DNA of 64,000 nt, taken from NCBI GenBank assembly GCA_027484655.1, contig JAIXSM010000015.1, positions 1-64,000 of the forward strand, read 5' to 3'. The stretch's first letter is position 1, and every line of letters begins with the position of its first letter. The stretch comes from Hyphomicrobiales bacterium. GTDB lineage: Bacteria > Pseudomonadota > Alphaproteobacteria > Rhizobiales > Beijerinckiaceae. Positions 49,369-62,442 of this stretch are shown here, one piece after another. The notes under the pieces are model-generated. The model was not told where the DNA came from. It saw only the letters and a program-made list of their open reading frames with translations, and searched no databases. Both the position numbers and the translations under genes were made by a program.

Positions 49369-49444
49369 GCCGCAATAGCTCAGTTGGTAGAGCACGTCAT
49401 TCGTAATGACGGGGTCGGGGGTTCGAATCCCTCTTGCGGCACCA
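49369..49444 (+). tRNA. tRNA-Thr (anticodon CGT), CCA encoded
   Basis: GCCGCAA...TTGCGGCACCA; anticodon loop TTCGTAA. Confidence 0.95.
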
Positions 49445-50993: not shown

Positions 50994-51887
50994 TTACGGC
51001 CGCGGGCGCAGGACGTCGCCGGGTTTTGGCGCTCCGACCAGCGCGAGCTTCGCCCGGGCGACGCTGAACTTCGGCGTCACGCGTATGATCTCGACCTCGC
51101 CCAAAAGGGATTCGGCCTCGCCCAATGTCTCCTTGGTCACGGGGTCGATAAGCGCCGCGCCCACCGAGAACAGTTGATACACGTCGCCCACGGCCAGCCC
51201 CGGGCCTTCGCCGCGATTGACGAAGATGTCGGGGCCCTGCGCCTGAATGACCTGCAGCGGGAACAGCGCGCCGACAATGGAAGCGGTGAACTTGGCGCCA
51301 AGATCGGCGCTGAGAGCCCGCCAGGCCGCGTGCTCAACCACGGCCGCGTCGTTCTCGCCGGTCTGCCGCGCGGCGCCGGCGCCGCCCCGGCGCAGTTCGG
51401 CCTCGCGCGTCACCTGATAGACGATCTCGCCGGACGTCGTGTCGAGCACCTTGGCGCTCACGGTTGCGGAGCCCGTGGCGGAGAACACGAACTGGCCCGG
51501 GCGCATTTCGTTCGGCAGGCGTTGCACGCTGACGCTGACGTGGGAGATGAGTGGCTGGACGATGTACTGCACGTTGTTCAGCCGTCCGGCTTCCGCGGCG
51601 TTGCCAAGCGATTGCTCACCAGCGGCGAACTCCTGCTCGATGCGCACTGTCCGCAGCACTTCCTGCGTGCGCTCGAACACCGAGAACCGGCGGCTGGCGC
51701 GGATACCCTCCTCGATCTGGCGGGCGAGTTCCTGAGCGTCGAGTTTTCCAGGCTGGAAGCGGGCGCGCACGGCCTCGGCGACCAGCGGCTGAAACACCGC
51801 CAGCGAGGGGCGGTCCTGCGCCGCCGCCGGCGCTACGGCGGCCAACAGCAGCGCGAGCGCAGAAAACAAGTGTGCGGGTTTCACCAT
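50994..51887 (-). CDS. CsgG-like exported protein (gene 5 of operon)
   Basis: Signal peptide; 'LAVFQPLVAEAVRARFQPGKLDAQELARQIEEGIRASRRFSVFERTQEVLRTVRIEQEFAAGEQSLGNAAEAGRLNNVQYIVQP'; overlaps upstream gene by 7 nt. Confidence 0.7.
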   Translation of the reverse strand: MVKPAHLFSALALLLAAVAPAAAQDRPSLAVFQPLVAEAVRARFQPGKLDAQELARQIEEGIRASRRFSVFERTQEVLRTVRIEQEFAAGEQSLGNAAEAGRLNNVQYIVQPLISHVSVSVQRLPNEMRPGQFVFSATGSATVSAKVLDTTSGEIVYQVTREAELRRGGAGAARQTGENDAAVVEHAAWRALSADLGAKFTASIVGALFPLQVIQAQGPDIFVNRGEGPGLAVGDVYQLFSVGAALIDPVTKETLGEAESLLGEVEIIRVTPKFSVARAKLALVGAPKPGDVLRPRP

Positions 51888-53104
51888 CGGGGTTTGCTCG
51901 GGCTTGGAGGGGGTGCGGGACGCGATTGGGCGGCGGAGCGCGGCGCCTCAGCCCGCAAGATCAGGTCGGCGCCGTCCGGCAGCGCGCCGGCGATGAGTTC
52001 TCCGTAGGACAGCTTGGGATCGACCCGCATGACGCGGATCGTCGCGACATGGGTTTCCGCGCGGCCGAGCGGCTCTTTGGTGTAGGGATCGAACATCTCG
52101 TCGCCGAGAAAGTTCGCCGTGTAAGTCTGGCCGACGCGTACCGTGTCGCCGCCCTGGTTGATGGTGACGTAACGGCCCGCCGTGACCTGCAGCACGCGCA
52201 GCGGGAAGATGCCGCTGGTGACCTTCTCGCCCAGCGCCGCAGCGCCGGCGGCGAGCGCGGCGGCGACGTCGCCCTGCGCTTCCACGCCCGCCTGCCCCGC
52301 CCATTTGATCTGGCGGGTCGCGACGTCGAGGATCGAGAAATCGAGGACGATGGCTGTCCCGGCGTTGACCACGCGTTCGCCCGTCACAGGCAGCGTGCGC
52401 TCGTTCGAGAAGCTTTCGAGGCGGCGCAGTTTTGTGAGCAGCATGTAGTCGGCGCCCAGCATCTGCCCGATGCGCACGGTCTCGGCCAAGGGAACGTCGG
52501 CGCTGCGCAGGAGCGCCATTTCGCTGCGGTAAGCTGCCTCGTTCTCACGGTCCAGCACGGCGAACCGGCGCGTCTGCACGAAGTAGGACGTGATCGCGTC
52601 CCGCAGCGCCGCCACGTCGGCGGGCTGCGCCCCGGCGAGGTTCTGCGGCGGCATGGTGACGAGGCGCCGGCGATCCTGCGTGGGCAACCCGGGAGCCGCG
52701 AAGCGCTCGACGCTGACGGTGAGGCGGGCGAGAAAGCCCCTGCCCTCCTCCTCCACCGCATGAATCTGATAACTGCGAACGACCCCGCCCGAAGCTTGGC
52801 GGATCTCCTGCTGGAAACCTTCCGAAACCGTAGTGCGGGCGCTGCCCTCGTCGATCACCGAGGACAGGCTCTGTTGCGCGCGGCGCGCCGCCTCGAGGCG
52901 GACGCCGGTAACCTGCTCAAGGGCGGACACGAGGCCTGCGGCCACAGCCTCCTGCCGGGTGGCGCCGACGCCCTGCGCCTCGACGGTGAGGGTCTCGGCC
53001 ATGGCGGGGCGAGCGCTTGCGAGCAGGACCGCGACCGCGACCGCGCCGGCCAGCGCCCGGACGTGCATCCGCAAGCGACGGGCGCGCGGCATTTGCCTGT
53101 TCAT
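51881..53104 (-). CDS. CsgG-like exported protein with FlgT/LPP20-like N-terminal domain (gene 4 of operon)
   Basis: 'LTVEAQGVGATRQEAVAAGLVSALEQVTGVRLEA' then 'RDAITSYFVQTRRFAVLDRENEAAYRSEMALLRSADVPLAETVRIGQMLGADYMLLTKLRRL'. Confidence 0.7.
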   Translation of the reverse strand: MNRQMPRARRLRMHVRALAGAVAVAVLLASARPAMAETLTVEAQGVGATRQEAVAAGLVSALEQVTGVRLEAARRAQQSLSSVIDEGSARTTVSEGFQQEIRQASGGVVRSYQIHAVEEEGRGFLARLTVSVERFAAPGLPTQDRRRLVTMPPQNLAGAQPADVAALRDAITSYFVQTRRFAVLDRENEAAYRSEMALLRSADVPLAETVRIGQMLGADYMLLTKLRRLESFSNERTLPVTGERVVNAGTAIVLDFSILDVATRQIKWAGQAGVEAQGDVAAALAAGAAALGEKVTSGIFPLRVLQVTAGRYVTINQGGDTVRVGQTYTANFLGDEMFDPYTKEPLGRAETHVATIRVMRVDPKLSYGELIAGALPDGADLILRAEAPRSAAQSRPAPPPSPSKPRW

Positions 53105-53116
53105 GTCGCCTCCACT

Positions 53117-54424
53117 TTAGAAGTCGGACGTGGTCGAAGAGGCGCCGGAGCGCACCGGAGCCCCTGCGGGCGCGCCGACAACGCCAGGCCGCGCCGGCGG
53201 GTTGGCGACGCCCCTCGCCGCGCGCTCAAGCGCCTGTCCGGCAATGGCTGCGTCGTCGGCGTTGGAACGCGACCAGACGACGGCAACCGTCGTCATCAGC
53301 GCACCGGACCACGGGTGCTTCCCGCGCCAGGCCTTCACCTCCGAGACGCCGCTGAGGTTCAGCGTCTTGGCGACGGCCTCGATCTTCAGATCGTAGGCGG
53401 CTGCGTTGAAGGAGCGCGCGCTGTCGTCCGTCTCTCGGTAGGTGAAATCCACGTTGTCCTTGTCGCTGCCCGCTATGCGCTCGCCCACGAACCGCTGGAT
53501 GGCGGCGATGGCGCGCGTGCGGGCGCGGGTGTTGTCGAGGCTCGCCTGGCTCGAGGCAGGCACGCTGCCGAAGCCGACCACGAGCCGCTGCCCATGCTCG
53601 TTGGTCCACACGCGGGCGCCGGAGGTCACGGCCATCCAGTCGGCCTGGGCGCGATCCAGTTCGCTGAGGCGGGCCGCAAGCGACGCGTCGGGCGCGGCGG
53701 GCGGAAGCCGGAACCCGGGATTGATGATCGACTCGCCAATCTGCGCAAGCTTCAGGCTCCAAACGAGCCCTGTCAGCACGGCGTACTTGCCATCGACTGC
53801 GTTCGGCCCTTCGCACTGCACGGCTGTGAACGCGCCGCTGGCGAAGACCCGCGCAGAGGAGGCGATGCGCTCGCGCAGGCGTGTCTGGATCTTGAGGATC
53901 TCCTGCTTCTTCGCATCTTCGCTCCGCCCCGCGCCATCCCAGTTGGGAATGTATTTGCGGATCTCGTTGTCGAGGGCTGCGCCGGTGAGGACGAGCGTCT
54001 TGTCCGCCACGGAAAGCTGCGTGGCCGCGTCCTTCAGGAGTGGCGGCGGCTCATCGCCGCCGGCCATGAACGCGTCGAACGAACGCGAGGATGAGATTTC
54101 AAGGCCGATAAACTGGGCAAGCGAATTGCGCGCGTTCAGCTCGGCGATTGAGAAGGCCGCGTCACGCGCAGCAATCCATCGCGACGCATCGGACTTCTCC
54201 GCATTCACCTCGCCCTGCCCGCGCGCCACGAGCCGGAAAGATCCGTCGGGCCGCGCGTTCTTGCCTTCCGTCAGCTTTTCGGAGGCGAGCCAGTCGGCCC
54301 AGCACTGCTCCACATTCGTGGCCAAGCGCGCGGCGCCGGCGAGGTTGGCGTCCTGCGCGAAGGCCCCGGACGCGGCCAGCCCCGCCGCTGCTGCTACGAT
54401 GACTTTGGCCAGTGACGTTTTCAT
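53117..54424 (-). CDS. uncharacterised exported protein (gene 3 of operon)
   Basis: Signal peptide 'MKTSLAKVIVAAAAGLAASGAFAQ'; 435-aa ORF, 12 nt from the next gene; no family confidently recognised. Confidence 0.7.
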   Translation of the reverse strand: MKTSLAKVIVAAAAGLAASGAFAQDANLAGAARLATNVEQCWADWLASEKLTEGKNARPDGSFRLVARGQGEVNAEKSDASRWIAARDAAFSIAELNARNSLAQFIGLEISSSRSFDAFMAGGDEPPPLLKDAATQLSVADKTLVLTGAALDNEIRKYIPNWDGAGRSEDAKKQEILKIQTRLRERIASSARVFASGAFTAVQCEGPNAVDGKYAVLTGLVWSLKLAQIGESIINPGFRLPPAAPDASLAARLSELDRAQADWMAVTSGARVWTNEHGQRLVVGFGSVPASSQASLDNTRARTRAIAAIQRFVGERIAGSDKDNVDFTYRETDDSARSFNAAAYDLKIEAVAKTLNLSGVSEVKAWRGKHPWSGALMTTVAVVWSRSNADDAAIAGQALERAARGVANPPARPGVVGAPAGAPVRSGASSTTSDF

Positions 54425-54469
54425 ACACGGCTCCAGTGTCTTTGAGAGAAAGAACGAAGTGGACGCAAC

Positions 54470-56581
54470 TCAGCGCCGATCGACCTGTCGGGGAGCGACG
54501 GCCTGGCGCGGCGCCGCGCGGGGGGCGGCCGTCCGAGGCGCGGCCATGCGGGGCGTTCCCGCGCGCGACGTCACCTGAGGAGCCATGCGCTGCCCCTGAA
54601 CACGAGGCGCCATCTGGGGCGCCATGCCTCCGCTGGGGCCACCGCGGCCAGCCACCGCGGGCGCAGCCTGTGCGGGCATCTGGCCGGGGCGAGCGTCGGG
54701 CGCCGCGCCGTTCGGCGCGACGATCCTCGGCGGCGCGGCCATAGGGGCAGGCTGGCCGCTGCCCGGCCCGGCGCGCGGCGTCAGCGGCTGGAAATTGGCG
54801 CCGGCGGGCGCCGGCACAGGGCCAGAGCCCAAGGCCGCAGGCGCGGCGGCGGGCAACGGCCGGCCGACCGGCTGGAAGTTGGCGGCGGGAGCCACAGCCT
54901 GCACAGGTACGCCGCTCGGCGCGACGATCCTCGGCGGCGCAGCCATAGGCGCAGGCTGGCCGCCGCCCGGCCCGGCGCGCGGCGTCAGCGGCTGGAAATT
55001 GGCGCCGGCGGGCGCCGGCGCGCCCCGCACCGGCACAGGGCCAGAGCCCATGGCCGCAGGCGCGGCGGCGGGCAACGGCCGTCCGACCGGCTGGAAGTTT
55101 GCGGCGGGAGCCACAGCCTGCACAGGCACGCCACCGACCCCGCGAACCTGAACCGGCCGATAACCGACAGGCGCAGCCCAGGCTGGGCGAGCGGCCGGCA
55201 GCGATACGCGGGGCAGTGAACGGGCGGCCGACACCGCAAGGGGCGCCGCCGTCGCTGCGGCGACAGCCGCGACCGCGACCGGCGCCCAGGCCGGCATGTT
55301 GAGGCTGGGCGCCCGAGGAATAAACTCGACCGGCATGCTGGCGCTCGAGGCGATCATCTCGACGCCGGCGACCGGCGGCGGCAGCCCGGCGAACGAGACC
55401 GGCGCGAACGCCGACGGGGGCTCCATCGGCGCGCCCATACGGGCCAGACGCTGACGGGCGACGGACACGTTGCCGCCGTCCGGATAAAGGGCCAGGTACG
55501 TCCAGAACCCATCGGGCTGATTGCGCCGCAAGGCGCCGGACCACACCTCCGCCTCGCGGCGAACCGCCAGATTGTACTGCACGGTGGCAGCCGCCTCATC
55601 CTCGGGGAAGCGCACGAGGAACGCCTGATAACCTTCGATCGAGTCCGTAGCGACGACCTTCCGGAAGGCCTCCTCGCGGCTCAGTGAGGCAAGCTCGATC
55701 TTCTCGTCGGCCTTGTGCGCCAGCGTGGGCAAGGTCTGCCCCGGCGCGGGCGGGAAGAACGCGTAGCCGAGATCCGGAAGACGGTCAGAACTCCACGGGT
55801 ACTGGCGGTTCTGCGTTTCCTCGAACACGCGCGTGCGGGTGAAAGCGAAGAACTCACCGAACGAGGCGACCGGCCGGTCGATGGCGTCGAGAATACTCTT
55901 CGCGAAGATTCCCATTGGCGGCTGCGGCTCCGGCAGCGTGCGCCCCGGGCTCTGGTTGAACGCGATGAGAAAGCCCTCCGGCGCGTCCATCTTCGCAAGG
56001 CCGGGGCTGAACTCCGGATCGCTCGTCAACCGCTCGGGCGGCGCGGCCGCGTCAACCACCAGAATACGCGCGCGCGCCGACACAAGGCGCAGGCTCTCGA
56101 CGATATCCCGCAGGCGCAGGCCATTGAGCACCACATCCGCGCTCCGCGCCACCGGAGTGCCGACTGGCAGCAGATAATTCTCGCCATTGATCTGGGCGAC
56201 GCGCCCCGACAGATAAATGAAAATCGTCTCCGCCCCACCCGCCAGAGTCGCCCGCTCTGACAGGTCGCGCAGTCTCGCGCGAATGGACGCCTGATCGAGA
56301 TCGGATGCGCCGTTGGTGTGAAAACCGCGGTCTCCCAGTGCGCTCTCGATGTATCCCGCATCACCTGTCCCGGTGACGAGCCGCGCGCCCGGATAATCCG
56401 ACTGTCCAATAACCACAGCGAAGCGCCGCTCTCCCGCGCCGCCAGGCACTGCGCCAATCTCCTGCGCATGGCCGGCTGTGGCCGACAGCGCAGCGACGCA
56501 GACGATGCTAGCGCCCAATGCGCCAAGGATGCGATCAAGAATGCCCATCGCCAAATCCCCCGCCATCGAACGCCACGTCAC
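54470..56581 (-). CDS. caspase-fold (peptidase C14-like) protein, predicted catalytically inactive, with Pro/Ala/Gln-rich duplicated tail (gene 2 of operon)
   Basis: 'RRFAVVIGQSDYPGARLVTGTGDAGYIESALGDRGF', 'IFIYLSGRVAQINGENYLLPVGTPV', 'ARILVVDAAAPPERL', 'GLAKMDAPEGFLIAFNQSPGRTLPEP'. Confidence 0.82.
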   Translation of the reverse strand: MTWRSMAGDLAMGILDRILGALGASIVCVAALSATAGHAQEIGAVPGGAGERRFAVVIGQSDYPGARLVTGTGDAGYIESALGDRGFHTNGASDLDQASIRARLRDLSERATLAGGAETIFIYLSGRVAQINGENYLLPVGTPVARSADVVLNGLRLRDIVESLRLVSARARILVVDAAAPPERLTSDPEFSPGLAKMDAPEGFLIAFNQSPGRTLPEPQPPMGIFAKSILDAIDRPVASFGEFFAFTRTRVFEETQNRQYPWSSDRLPDLGYAFFPPAPGQTLPTLAHKADEKIELASLSREEAFRKVVATDSIEGYQAFLVRFPEDEAAATVQYNLAVRREAEVWSGALRRNQPDGFWTYLALYPDGGNVSVARQRLARMGAPMEPPSAFAPVSFAGLPPPVAGVEMIASSASMPVEFIPRAPSLNMPAWAPVAVAAVAAATAAPLAVSAARSLPRVSLPAARPAWAAPVGYRPVQVRGVGGVPVQAVAPAANFQPVGRPLPAAAPAAMGSGPVPVRGAPAPAGANFQPLTPRAGPGGGQPAPMAAPPRIVAPSGVPVQAVAPAANFQPVGRPLPAAAPAALGSGPVPAPAGANFQPLTPRAGPGSGQPAPMAAPPRIVAPNGAAPDARPGQMPAQAAPAVAGRGGPSGGMAPQMAPRVQGQRMAPQVTSRAGTPRMAAPRTAAPRAAPRQAVAPRQVDRR
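54712..55132. repeat. Imperfect direct duplication of ~205-215 bp (54712-54914 and 54916-55132) within the tail of the caspase-like gene
   Basis: Two near-identical blocks starting tcggcgcgacgatcctcggcggcg and ending cacagcctgcacaggYacgcc. Confidence 0.9.
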
Positions 56582-58491
56582 AGGGAGCCGACGAACGCGT
56601 TCGCGCCGTCAAAGCGAACCTTGAATGTCTTGCGGTCCTTGAAAGCCTCATACAAAGCGTCAACCAGATCTTCCGGGTCGAAGCGGTTCGGGTGCTCGAA
56701 CCGGATCTCGACCGACTTGTCGTTCGTGCCGGCAGGATCGACGCGCGTTTCAACGCCCGAGAGCGCTTTGGAGATCACATCGCGCAGCATGCGGATCTGC
56801 TGCCGATCCCGCTGGGTCATGCCCGCGATCTTCACAGCGTACTGGGACGAAGACCGCACACTCGCCGCCTGTGCGCCGGGAGCCGCCTTCTGCGAAGCCG
56901 CGATGGTGAGCAGACGCGCGCTGATGTCCCGGTGCACCTGCCGCGCCAACTCCGTTGCCTGCATGGGCAGCAACTGGCCGCGGCGCGCCTCCTTCGGCGT
57001 CGCCGTATCGCGCGGCACGCGTTTGGTATTGAGCACAGGAACGTTCGCAAGCTCCACACGGCCCCCGGGGTTCTTATTGTTGTCGAGGAGCTTCACGAGG
57101 GCGCGCAGGGTATAGTTTTCAAATCGCACCCCCCCCGTGGAGCCGACATCTGCGTGCTGGTCGTCATACTCAATCGATAGGATGTTCAGAAAGTAGTCGA
57201 CCTCGCCCCGCGCAATCGCCTCCTCCTCGCTATTGCGCGCGATGACACGGTAGCCTGCATTAATGAACTCAGCACGTATACTATCGATCAGGAAGCGGGT
57301 GGCAGGATCTTCCTTCTCCTCGTAGCCCAGTATGAAGCGAAACGCGCGATCGGCGCCGCTGACCGTCGCGGTCATGAGCTTCTGAACCTCGCCCTTTAGA
57401 ACCCCTACTTTAAAGATCCCGTCGAGGTTGCAGTTGAAGAGCTGCCCCACCTTTGTGCAGTTGAGCTTCGTATCGGACGTGAAGTATATCGCACGGAACT
57501 TATCAAGCGACGACTCGGCAGACTTACGGAACTGCCGGCCAACGTCGCCATCGGCCTGCGACCCAATCAATTCACGCAGTTGCTTTTCAAAAACCTCATA
57601 AACCGCGTCACGCTGCGCGACCGATTGACGGCCGTTGCTCGCCTTCCCCGATACGCGGACTTCGCCACGCGCTAGCATCTGGGCAGCTTCCTCGCGCCGA
57701 CGCTCCATCTCCATATGATATGCGGCGACGAGGTCGCTGGCCGAACGATCAAGCGCGATCAGTTCCGGCTCGGAGGCATTAGGGCCTCGACGCGCGGACT
57801 CGATTCGCTTGCGCAACTCTGCAGCGCGTTGCTGGTTGAACTTGTTGTCGGGCGACAGGAGAGGCTGCAGTTTGCGGATGGCGCCGTCAGCGATCTGCAC
57901 CCGGCGGGCTTCTGCCTGAGCCGCGAGCCGGGATGTCCGCGCTGCAGGCGTCTCGACCGCCACCTTGCCTATCTCGCGACCCGTGAGAAGTGCAGTCGCG
58001 GCTTGGTCCGCGGTTAGCGGCATCGATTGAGCCGAAGACAACACAAACACCTCGTCGCAACGCGTGCGCCCGACATCGAGCGTGCACTCGACGTTCTTCA
58101 TAAGATTGCGCGAGGATATCGGCTGGCAACGGCCAAAGATGGACGCAAGTTGCGGATCTGAGGCCGGTAGACCGTTGGAGATCAGCGCCTCTATGGACTG
58201 TCCGTTGCGCTGAAGCAACTGATCGGCACATGCACTAACGTAAGGATCGATACCAGCCCATGTTTTGCGCAACTCCACCATCCGCGCCTGCTCGGCCGCG
58301 CGGGCCGCGCGCTCCTGGGCCTGGATAGCACGCTGCTGCTCTTGGATCGCTTCTTGCTGCCGGCGCATGATCTCCTGGCGTTGCGCCTCATGTATAAGCA
58401 GATCGAAAATATTTTGAGCTTGCGCGGAATTGGGAGCCACGAATAATAAAGGATAGATTGCCAAGAAAAAAAGCTTCAATATTAAACTCAC
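56578..58491 (-). CDS. uncharacterised exported 637-aa protein with N-terminal coiled coil (gene 1 of operon)
   Basis: Signal peptide 'MSLILKLFFLAIYPLLFVAPNSAQAQ' then Q/R/A coiled coil; 4-nt overlap with the caspase-like gene. Confidence 0.75.
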   Translation of the reverse strand: MSLILKLFFLAIYPLLFVAPNSAQAQNIFDLLIHEAQRQEIMRRQQEAIQEQQRAIQAQERAARAAEQARMVELRKTWAGIDPYVSACADQLLQRNGQSIEALISNGLPASDPQLASIFGRCQPISSRNLMKNVECTLDVGRTRCDEVFVLSSAQSMPLTADQAATALLTGREIGKVAVETPAARTSRLAAQAEARRVQIADGAIRKLQPLLSPDNKFNQQRAAELRKRIESARRGPNASEPELIALDRSASDLVAAYHMEMERRREEAAQMLARGEVRVSGKASNGRQSVAQRDAVYEVFEKQLRELIGSQADGDVGRQFRKSAESSLDKFRAIYFTSDTKLNCTKVGQLFNCNLDGIFKVGVLKGEVQKLMTATVSGADRAFRFILGYEEKEDPATRFLIDSIRAEFINAGYRVIARNSEEEAIARGEVDYFLNILSIEYDDQHADVGSTGGVRFENYTLRALVKLLDNNKNPGGRVELANVPVLNTKRVPRDTATPKEARRGQLLPMQATELARQVHRDISARLLTIAASQKAAPGAQAASVRSSSQYAVKIAGMTQRDRQQIRMLRDVISKALSGVETRVDPAGTNDKSVEIRFEHPNRFDPEDLVDALYEAFKDRKTFKVRFDGANAFVGSL

Positions 58492-58918
58492 AGCTCAGCT
58501 CCCGTTTGCTTACAAACGCTCGTATTTTTACGTTAATACATAACTTCCTCCCAATGCAACAACGGCGCTGATAGCTACATTAGACCGCCTTATTCATCAG
58601 GGATGATTTCGAGGCTGGAGAACGCAACATAACGATCTGATTTAACGCAGGGTATGATCGCTGACGCAGATACAGTTCGCTGTCTCGCGCTAGCCACGTA
58701 CACCATGGCAGACGATAACCTCCCACCGTCCTCGTTTCTAGCCGTTGCCAGCATAGATCCTTCCCGCGCATCGAGCCAGTAAAGTCCGATACGTTGTTGA
58801 CCAAGTTCAAATGTGCGCCATCAGGTAAGTGGTCACGCCCGCATCGCCTTAACCGCCCCACCCCAGATACTGTCGACGCGGGGAACCACAGGCGCTTGAA
58901 AGCGCCGGAAAACCTGGC

Positions 58919-59040: not shown

Positions 59041-59268
59041 TTATAGTGTTTGCCGCAACATATTGATCGGGTCAGCCCCAAGCGCCCTGGCTATTCCGAC
59101 GAATTCAGCAATGTCCAGAAGGCGCTCCCCGCTTTCATACTTCGACACGAACGACTGCGGCTTATTCAACGAATTAGCCACCTCAGCCTGCGTCAAGCCA
59201 GCCTTCCTTCGAGCAGCGACAAGTTCCTCGAGTGGGATTTTATACAGCTCAGGAAAAAGTGAGCTCAC
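59041..59268 (-). CDS. XRE-family helix-turn-helix regulator (GTG start)
   Basis: 'LEELVAARRKAGLTQAEVANSLNKPQSFVSKYESGERLLDIAEFVGIARALGADP'. Confidence 0.85.
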   Translation of the reverse strand: MSSLFPELYKIPLEELVAARRKAGLTQAEVANSLNKPQSFVSKYESGERLLDIAEFVGIARALGADPINMLRQTL

Positions 59269-59319
59269 GTGAGAGGCCGCCAGATGAAACTGGCCCCTCA
59301 AAGAAACCCAAATTCGGAT

Positions 59320-59336
59320 TATCCCAAATCGGGATA
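59320..59336. promoter_or_regulatory. Candidate operator TATCCC-N5-GGGATA between the XRE gene and the divergent ORF
   Basis: Perfect 6+6 inverted repeat about 50 bp upstream of the XRE start. Confidence 0.35.
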
Positions 59337-59379
59337 TTTTGGCATACTCCCCGCCACATTTACGGTCGGGGGCGGCACG

Positions 59380-60145
59380 GTGAAGGATCAGTACGTTGGC
59401 GACGTCTGCGATTACCGGAAGTATGCGCTGCTTCGGGCGCTTACGAAGCATTCCTCTCTAAATCTCGGAATTTGCTGGATGTTAATGCCAGATGATGGCG
59501 GAAACGATGGCAAGCATCCCCAGTATCTTGCCACCCCCGAACGGTGGAAGCCCCAAGATCCCGAACTGTTCGACCTCCTAAAAGGAATAGTACAGCTAAA
59601 GATTGAGGCCAATGACAAGCGTGGTTCAGGGAGCACGGGCGAAAGAGACGAAGAGGATGGCAATCGTGGATCGCCACGATGGCTGCCCGAAATGGAAGCC
59701 AGCGGAGTGCTCGGGTCAGCTCAGTTTTTCAACGAGTACCTGTCTGATCAACTGAATTGTAAGAGAGGGTATATATCTTAGGCCAAGAGTTTATTCTCTC
59801 AGTGTGACCTCGTATTTTTCGATCCGGATAATGGACTGGACGTGCCGACCGTTCCCAAGGGGCGGCGGAATTCATCAAAGTATCTATTTCTGGACGAGTT
59901 ATTCGATTTTTGGCGAGATGGGGCGTCTATTCCGATTTACAAACATTAACTGCCTCAACACCGCCCTACATTTGATAAGCGGATCACTTAACGTGTCGCG
60001 GCTACGCTGCCCGGGTGTCGTATTATTTTATTCGCCACAGCGAACGTGCTGTTCGTTTTGGCGGCCCAGCCTCGACATGTGCAGCATTTCATGAAGGCGG
60101 CGGGTCGAATTTCGGAAAGATGGCCGACGTGGTTTCTAAAGCATT
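59380..60145 (+). pseudogene. Interrupted gene for a 'DYRKYALLRAL...DLVFFDPDNGLDV...SSKYL' family protein
   Basis: ORF to an amber stop at 59779-59781, same frame reopens to 59949 (AKSLFSQCDLVFFDPDNGLDVPTVPKGRRNSSKYLFLDEL...IYKH), then a shifted-frame 'VLFVLAAQPRHVQHFMKAAGRISERWPTWF' continuation. Confidence 0.6.
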
Positions 60146-60235: not shown

Positions 60236-60772
60236 CTACAAGCTCTCCTGGGTTCTTTCGGCAGCCTTGCGCAAGTGCGCTTTCAATTGGGAGAGCGCCT
60301 TTTCGATTGGGTTGAAGTCGGGGCTATAGGGCGGCAGGTAGCGCAGTTCGGCTCCGACCGCCTCGATGGCCGCTCGAACGGCTACTCCCTTATGTGAGCC
60401 GAGATTGTCCATCACGACGATGTCGCCTCCACTCAAGGTCGGAATAAGAACCTGCGCGACATAAGCCTCGAACGCTTCACGGTTGATGGGGCCGTCGAGG
60501 ACGAGCGGCGCCACCATGCCCGTTATGCGCAGGCCTGCCACAAAGGTCGTCGTTTTCCAGTGCCCATGCGGCACGCCCATGCGCAAGCGCTCGCCCCGCC
60601 CACAGCGCCCACGGCGGCGCGCCATGTTGGTGGAGGTCCAGGTCTCGTCGGTGAAGACGAGACGCTCGGAGTCGAGGTCGAATTGGAAGTCGAACCAGTT
60701 CTGTCGGCGCTTCAGGACGTCCGGCCGATCCTGCTCCGTGGCGTGGGCAGTCTTTTTTCCACGTGATCCCAT
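60236..60772 (-). CDS. IS630 transposase ORF B (DDE part)
   Basis: '[24 protein letters not shown]', '[46 protein letters not shown]'. Confidence 0.9.
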
Positions 60773-61097
60773 TGCGGGCGAAGAAGCGCCAGAGTGCGCC
60801 GATGGAGAAGCGATGGCCCTGCACGGCGATTTCTGCCTGCAATTCGACGAGGGTGATATCGCACGTGCGATCTACGATCCCGAGGATGAGGTCGCGGACG
60901 GCTTCGATGCGCTGCGAGCGGCGGTCGCCGCCTTGCGCCGCCAACTTTGGCGTTCCGGCATCACGAGCGCGAGCGCACCACCACACGGCGCTCGCTGCCC
61001 CCACGCCGAAGCGCTCCGCCGCTTGCCGACGCGACATTCCGCTTTCGACAGCGGCAACAACAGGTTCACGCAGGTCGAGCGAGAGAGGCTTCGTCAT
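60477..61097 (-). CDS. IS630 transposase ORF A (HTH part)
   Basis: '[40 protein letters not shown]...[19 protein letters not shown]'; tail after GITWKK is out of frame relative to ORF B. Confidence 0.85.
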
Positions 61098-61195
61098 CGC
61101 GACTGGCCTCCTTCTGCCAGCCTCAATATTGAATAAGATGAAAGCCGATTCGGGACTCCTGCATCGATTCAGTACGAACGGAAACCGCTCTAGAG

Positions 61196-61875
61196 CGCGT
61201 GTTCTTATTATAGAAGATCACGACAGTCTTAGGAAAAGCATTATAGCATCATTAATGCGATCAGGTTTCTCAGCTGACGGATTATTTTGCGCTGAAGACC
61301 TGATGGATGCGATAGCTACTACCCCGCCTGATCTCTATGTCATCGATATCGGCCTGCCTGGTGAAGATGGAATGAGCCTCGTGGCCAGGATATGGGGCCG
61401 TCAGCCTTTGGCTGGGATCGTCCTGCTATCGGGCCAGACGGCTTTGAACACCCGAATTGAGGGCTATGAGGCAGGCGCTGACGTATATGTGGCGAAGCCC
61501 TCCAATCTAGACGAGCTTTTGGCCGTCCTACGCTCGCTTGCCCGACGTACGGTCCAGAGCCGGTCCGAACAAAAGCTGGAGATTACAGTCTTCACCCACA
61601 CTAACCAATTGATCGGCCCAAAGTCGACGGTACAAACTAGCGATGCGGGGAAAAGAGTTCTCACGCGCTTTGCCCTATCCCCTCAAGGTATGTTGAACGC
61701 TGGGAAATATGGAATCTCTGGGTTCAGTAGAACCTCCGGTGAGCTCCCGAAGCCTTGAAGTCCGCATAACTACTCCGCGCAAAAAGCTTTCTGATACCGT
61801 CGGTGGCGGTAGCAATCCCGTTTTCGGTACTCATGGCGTTGGGTACAAACATCTGCCGACACTAAAGCTGAAGTG
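61196..61875 (+). pseudogene. OmpR-type response regulator, 5' end interrupted at the IS630 border and C-terminal DNA-binding domain frameshifted
   Basis: 'RVLIIEDHDSLRKSIIASLMRSGFSADGLF...YVIDIGLPGEDGMSLVARIW...GYEAGADVYVAKP' in one frame; 'SSRSLEVRITTPRKKLSDTVGGGSNPVFGTHGVGYK' winged-helix remnant in another. Confidence 0.7.
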
Positions 61876-61902
61876 ATTCCTGCTGAACTCGTAGTAGTGA
61901 AC

Positions 61903-62442
61903 CTACTCATTTATAATGTTACACATCTTTCTCTTTGGTAGTCTACGAAAACCGCTCGACGACGTCATCGCCCCACGATCTGCTTGGCCTTCTATGCTAA
62001 TCTTGATCTCCCTGTCGGCCAGCGCCTTGATAAACTCGATCGACGTAAATTGACTGCCCTGATCCATGTTGAAAACTTCGAGCGCAACATCCCGGGCCAA
62101 CGCCTCCTCGACGGCCGCAACGGAGGAGTCGCCCTCCAGCGTGCTCGGCACCCGCCAGGCGAACACCCGGCAAGTGAACCAGTCCATGCCGGCCGCGAGA
62201 TATATGGAGCCGCGCGCCATGGGGAAGTAATTAACGTCCATCCCCCAGACCTGATTGGGTCGATTGACGGGAAAGTTGAGCACAAGGTACGGACAGATTC
62301 TGTGCCAATGGGCTGGTTTGAGGTGTTCGGCTTGCGATACGGCGTGGTCATACTCATCCGCTTCAGCAGCGTGGCAACGGGCGGACGCCCCACCTTGACG
62401 CCCTCCTTTACGGCGACCCCTGCCCCAGCCGGCTTCCCGCAA
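61903..62442 (-). pseudogene. IS3-family transposase (OrfB, rve core) remnant
   Basis: 'NQVWGMDVNYFPMARGSIYLAAGMDWFTCRVFAWRVPSTLEGDSSVAAVEEALARDVALEVFNMDQGSQFTSIEFIKALADREIKISI' then loss of the conserved C terminus. Confidence 0.82.

Follow-up and report, generated by a model that had tools for sequence, protein, structure and literature searches.

What do five adjacent genes do when each encodes an exported protein and the set is not recognised as any named system? The question is raised by contig JAIXSM010000015.1 of a Hyphomicrobiales bacterium of the Beijerinckiaceae (genome of 3.59 Mb in 80 contigs, 100% complete), positions 1 to 64,000 of which were analysed (hereafter the window). Five minus-strand open reading frames (ORFs), designated A to E, span positions 50994-58491. 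The answer tentatively favoured here is that this operon encodes a non-flagellar, periplasmic, outer-membrane-associated ring or collar with an inert caspase-fold protein as scaffold. Its centre would be protein D, which resembles FlgT of the flagellar motor, and protein C, a member of the DUF6844 family.

A conserved operon for exported proteins with FlgT-like members

The operon comprises the genes A (56578..58491, 637 amino acids (aa)), B (54470..56581, 703 aa), C (53117..54424, 435 aa), D (51881..53104, 407 aa) and E (50994..51887, 297 aa). A and B overlap by 4 nucleotides (nt), gaps of 45 and 12 nt separate B from C and C from D, and D and E overlap by 7 nt, exactly as described in an earlier note on this DNA. 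The N-terminus of each of the five products has a hydrophobic core (12-residue Kyte-Doolittle mean of 2.2-2.7) followed by an AxA-type site, and all five are predicted to be exported by these signal-peptide-like starts, in line with the cell-envelope operon proposed in the note. Inspection of the N-termini revealed no lipobox in any of the five, and the sequences of D and E contain no cysteine at all.

A comparison of gene neighbourhoods, proposed in the earlier note as a check, showed that the order A-B-C-D-E recurs in a metagenome-assembled genome (MAG) of the Beijerinckiaceae, split there over three contigs. A 3-kb contig (L027, the closest of the 76 D loci described below) carries C-D-E, a second one (L113), found by searching the MAG with A and B, reads A-B-start of C, and a third (L114) bears the N-terminus of A at its end. 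Identities to the window proteins were 55% (A), 44% (B), 55% (D) and 49% (E), and the neighbouring genes outside A-E differ between the two genomes as far as they are visible. Held-out profiles, i.e. family profiles built without the window protein, recovered D (E 8.8e-112) and E (E 1.4e-31). Because a second genome has the same genes in the same order and the proteins are recovered by held-out profiles, A-E is more than a chance array and constitutes a real conserved unit; the assignments of its proteins to families are firm.

The model of D, predicted from 47 sequences (predicted local distance difference test score, pLDDT, of 84), consists of three domains. The best fold match in the PDB was FlgT (3w1e), with E 3.8e-16 over 405 columns, that is the full length, and with the N-M-C order of domains preserved, at a sequence identity of about 13%. 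The FlgT-containing LPHT ring solved by cryo-electron microscopy, CsgG and PelC ranked after it. FlgT (3w1e, 8z5n) is the H-ring protein of the Vibrio polar flagellum; FlgT, CsgG and PelC all form rings, and flagella, curli and Pel export are known settings of FlgT/CsgG-type folds. In D, an LPP20/FlgT-N-like domain (aa 37-134; 52703..52996, minus strand like all features of the operon) precedes a CsgG/LpoB/FlgT-M-like middle domain (aa 146-300; 52205..52669) and a FlgT-C-like domain (aa 302-385; 51950..52201). Profile comparison identified E as the M+C half of D, with a CsgG/FlgT-M-like and a FlgT-C-like domain. Among 49 D homologues, Pfam matches were obtained to CsgG (40), LpoB (32), FlgT_M (10), FlgT_C (5), LPP20 (3) and FlgT_N (2).

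No sequence family match was obtained for A. The protein begins with a coiled coil (aa 23-79) and a four-Cys part (aa 74-196; 57904..58272), continued by a helical part and a FlgT-like part (aa 277-535; 56887..57663), in which the structure model shows an LPP20/FlgT-N-type and then a CsgG/LptE-type fold. Its best fold match was again FlgT 3w1e (E 1.1e-7), with the LPHT ring 8z5n also matched, and on this model A would be the third FlgT-like protein of the operon, extended by a Cys-rich N-terminal part. The four-Cys part, with matches at 34-38% identity and E about 1e-16, also exists by itself in other Alphaproteobacteria, where it makes up a small exported protein (L107, L108), and all six cysteines of A are invariant between the window and MAG copies.

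The earlier note had described two CsgG-like proteins and two unknowns. D and E do belong to the CsgG/FlgT/LPP20 group, but the label CsgG-like holds in that sense of group membership: the structure searches recommended in the note placed FlgT first for both models used, A and D, the lipidated cysteine is absent, and a curli-type pore is unsupported. The description as unknowns was superseded for A by its FlgT-like and Cys-rich parts and for C by the family relationship described below.

The DUF6844 partner and the wider gene set

Over its full length (aa 19-435), C matched a held-out profile of the DUF6844 family with 131.9 bits and E 5.5e-40, and 400 control sequences, made by shuffling or reversing C, gave no match. 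Window C has no direct match to Pfam PF20891, which is matched by 39 of 46 C-family members and by the MAG copy. The C-family profile also matches a solved structure, 4QVR (E 1.3e-71), which is Francisella FTT_1539c. Judged by these sequence comparisons, C is a full-length DUF6844-family member. FTT_1539c is an immunoreactive outer membrane vesicle protein (PMC10963506) and belongs to the operon FTT1537c-FTT1540c (PMC4696196). The product of the adjacent FTT_1538c, whose gene position suggests that it is the counterpart of D, was enriched about 100-fold in Francisella vesicles (PMC6795709).

The scan of the named genomes with four D sequences (a six-sequence set was too divergent) yielded 76 loci, in which genes were counted over all ORFs since simple gene calling favours long antisense ORFs in high-GC loci. 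A C homologue adjoined D on the same strand in 53 of them; LpoB was present near D in 36, a family of roughly 480 aa, here called X, in 35 and YcfL in 23, the commonest order being X-YcfL-LpoB-C-D. Operons of this X-YcfL-LpoB-DUF6844-FlgT-like type were found in Oceanospirillales, Campylobacterota, Acetobacteraceae and others, and the Francisella operon probably belongs to them. For an Azospirillum plasmid locus, the NCBI annotation itself names YcfL, LpoB and DUF6844, and the LpoB copy matched LpoB with E 1.8e-39. The place of X, YcfL and LpoB is taken in the window by A, B and E, in terms of position and without implying functional replacement. Together, C and D make up the core of an envelope gene set that has no name, and the window operon is a variant of this much wider set. 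The literature searched, outside of which most subscription journals lie, contained no description of the set and no mention of DUF6844, and NCBIfam holds no model for C; the earlier note, in which the operon was not recognised as any named system, is supported on this point.

Comparison of the profile of A with those of X, LpoB, YcfL and neighbours gave no match and thus lent no support to the idea that A is a divergent X. Several related loci contain further genes. In L102 (9368-14856), an E-like gene adjoins the gene for a 942-aa protein with three FlgT/CsgG-type repeats, apparently a tandem fusion of ring-type domains, followed by X and YcfL. In three Burkholderiales loci (L078, L076 and L085), the C-D operons extend further to genes for an exported SH3-like protein with a -DDW end and for an M48-type metalloprotease, as read from the sequence. 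Beside the Azospirillum C-D operon, a giant immunoglobulin (Ig)-like protein gene lies on the opposite strand (L013, 15017-25053).

The C-termini of the set show a pattern. Of 60 complete C-family proteins, 56 have -DF or -F and two more have -W at the very end, behind a variable linker, the frequency of F or W ends among background genes of the same loci being 5.3%. A terminal -W was found in 30 of 33 LpoB partners and in 24 of 78 D homologues, and the two were mutually exclusive: LpoB carries it in 27 loci, D in 24, and both in none of the 77 loci (Fisher p 4e-6, uncorrected for relatedness). In the window and the MAG alike, C ends in -DF (aa 434-435; 53120..53125 in the window) and D in -RW (-SKPRW in the window, with the Trp at 51884..51886). 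The -DF and -W ends are probably two docking tails.

The presence of LpoB in the wider set raises the question of whether D, and E with it, could be LpoB-like regulators activating a class A penicillin-binding protein through the wall, with YcfL-LpoB-C-D elsewhere forming a cell-wall regulation set. The middle domain of D weakly passes the Pfam cut-off for LpoB (23.7 versus 22.3 bits) with CsgG below its own (17.1 versus 20.8) and no FlgT model matched, D is the sole LpoB match in the host genome, and the LpoB homologue found in 36 of the 76 loci is a strong one. This reading is nevertheless unlikely, as D falls far short of the NCBIfam equivalog cut-off (16.6 versus 110.6 bits) and has no lipid anchor, the shared domain is common to CsgG, TolB, FlgT and LptE and does not specify a function, and the FlgT-N and FlgT-C domains would be left unexplained.

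A CsgG-like outer-membrane pore secreting a surface protein or polymer was judged quite improbable. In its favour, E passes the Pfam cut-off for CsgG (22.8 versus 20.8 bits; FlgT_M 18.5 versus 31.2), CsgG is the commonest match among the D homologues, and a giant Ig-like protein is encoded beside the Azospirillum locus. However, the pore is disfavoured because D and E, lacking lipobox and cysteine, are not lipidated; by inspection, the inter-strand stretch of their middle regions is variable and polar, with little room for another membrane hairpin. CsgG ranks behind FlgT among the fold matches, the operon holds no substrate gene, and no csgA-, csgB-, csgE- or csgF-like gene was seen in it, the rest of the genome not having been searched for them.

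An accessory ring of the TsaP type around the secretin of a Tad or type IV pilus was regarded with similar scepticism. The sequence profile of D matches the C-terminal domain of the pilus protein TsaP (6ve2, E 3.9e-7), and the match lies in the C domain; the host genome has two secretin genes. Both are on contigs other than that of the operon and no secretin gene is linked to it in the window, no LysM domain is present, and no linkage was noticed in the related loci, although no search aimed at pilus genes was made in them.

The caspase-fold protein and the setting of the operon

The caspase-like member reported in the earlier note is B, whose p20 fold (aa 52-267; 55781..56428) matches PF00656 with E 2.5e-16. 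Its active site is lost, a point absent from the note: the catalytic His is replaced by Arg127 (56201-56203) and the catalytic Cys by Ala179 (56045-56047). In the MAG copy, these positions are Arg and Gly. The dyad is likewise missing from the closest relatives across the order, with Tyr, Gln, Val, Leu or Glu in place of His and Ala or Ser in place of Cys; more distant relatives retain His-Cys. Such losses in B and its closest relatives agree with the pseudo-orthocaspases, a group known mainly from Rhizobiales (PMC6426788). By its residues, B is a pseudo-orthocaspase, a caspase fold without the His-Cys dyad, and should be unable to cleave.

The host genome carries a second B copy (at C32, 37% identity) without FlgT-like neighbours, which are also missing beside the order-wide B paralogue. 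An independent tie of the caspase fold to D is provided by locus L096 of an alphaproteobacterial MAG, where a D homologue has an intact caspase domain (SGHG, DACR) built in frame into its middle domain. A stress, cell-death or defence effector built on the caspase fold, which B and the intact-dyad fusion might suggest, is very improbable, with both catalytic residues lost in the window and MAG copies, no PADLOC match, and exported envelope proteins as the only partners. A hydrophobic stretch of B (aa 435-451; 55229-55279), also present in the MAG copy and the B paralogue, precedes a Pro/Gln-rich tail and may be a membrane segment placing the tail on the other side. The tail is Pro/Ala-rich and imperfectly repeated, with no tandem repeats above threshold.

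The operon lies between a tRNA-Thr(CGT) gene beside hemY (49369-49444) and insertion sequence (IS)-type transposase ORFs. Of seven family genomes examined, three have hemY and tRNA-Thr linked in the same way, with different DNA after the tRNA and none of the window's genes there, which places the operon in a variable region. A D homologue was found in none of 198 other genomes of the same order, so the distribution of the operon is patchy; nine other genomes among 385 in the class sample contain one. A plasmid search with A as the query gave no match. The IS and tRNA flanks, together with the absence of the window genes after this tRNA in relatives, point to an accessory, horizontally moved unit.

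Upstream of the operon, a low-GC stretch contains a helix-turn-helix gene (59041-59451) and transposase-like ORFs (60236-62442; IS630-like and IS3-like by eye). In the MAG, a tRNA-Pro(GGG) gene (L114, 739-816) lies near gene A, so that a tRNA accompanies the operon in both genomes, on opposite sides. A promoter scan of the operon found none, and terminator signals were at chance level. A perfect 6-bp inverted repeat, CGTTTG-taag-CAAACG (58503-58518), which precedes the GTG start codon of A by about 12 nt, is a possible candidate for an operator or a translation-control hairpin.

The proposed assembly and known systems

In the preferred, still tentative reading of the operon as encoding a periplasmic ring or collar, D would be a full FlgT-like ring subunit, with an LPP20-type N, a CsgG/LpoB-type middle and a FlgT-C/TsaP-type end domain, and would form or stack into a ring with E, its half-length paralogue, and with A. 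C, the usual partner of D, would contribute the free -DF tail, which probably docks together with the -W tail of D on a common receptor, and B would act as a non-cleaving binding scaffold or adaptor. In flagellar motors, disks or rings close to the outer membrane are built from proteins of the LPP20/FlgP/FlgT type (PMC11756786). The flagellar rod family PF00460 had no match in the complete host genome, the controls being positive.

Several points weigh against this reading. The ring, its place at the outer membrane in this species, the docking of the tails and the scaffold role of B are inferred. Global TM-scores to FlgT are low (0.17-0.30) because the domain orientations differ, and the sequence signals of the window proteins to FlgT Pfam models stay below cut-off. 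The model of A is of moderate confidence (pLDDT 65) and was built from two sequences, and FTT_1538c was equated with D by position. Most C-D loci lack a B counterpart, so B is not needed for the core.

A broader proposal is more doubtful: undescribed non-flagellar periplasmic ring machines may be widespread, with a DUF6844 and FlgT-like core held or addressed by -DF and -W tails, of which the -W would switch between LpoB and the FlgT-like protein, and with a dead caspase that this lineage would have taken up as a structural component. FlgT/CsgG-type folds are here the core of an operon type without named function across many Proteobacteria, Campylobacterota and others, one member of which already has a solved structure (4QVR) and is a known antigen of outer membrane vesicles. 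The conserved C-D pair, the mutually exclusive tails and the recruited dead caspase make the function directly testable and provide an exported pseudocaspase with a first concrete set of partners.

Among known systems, CsgG and curli secretion share the middle-domain fold with D and E, which differ in having neither lipidation nor signs of membrane hairpins, and no substrate gene in their operon. The alphaproteobacterial pseudo-orthocaspases (PMC6426788), mostly from Rhizobiales, resemble B as exported caspase folds without the His-Cys dyad; B differs by the change of His to Arg combined with Cys to Ala or Gly and by its FlgT-like operon setting. FlgT agrees with D in fold and full-length N-M-C order, is the best fold match of A, and is exported without a lipid anchor like the window proteins. 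It is, however, flagellar, in contrast to the situation in a host without flagellar rod genes, where three FlgT-like proteins are encoded in one operon together with a DUF6844 protein and a pseudocaspase. The X-YcfL-LpoB-DUF6844-FlgT-like operons have homologous, adjacent C and D genes and -DF and -W tails as in the window, and differ in carrying X, YcfL and LpoB where the window has A, B and E.

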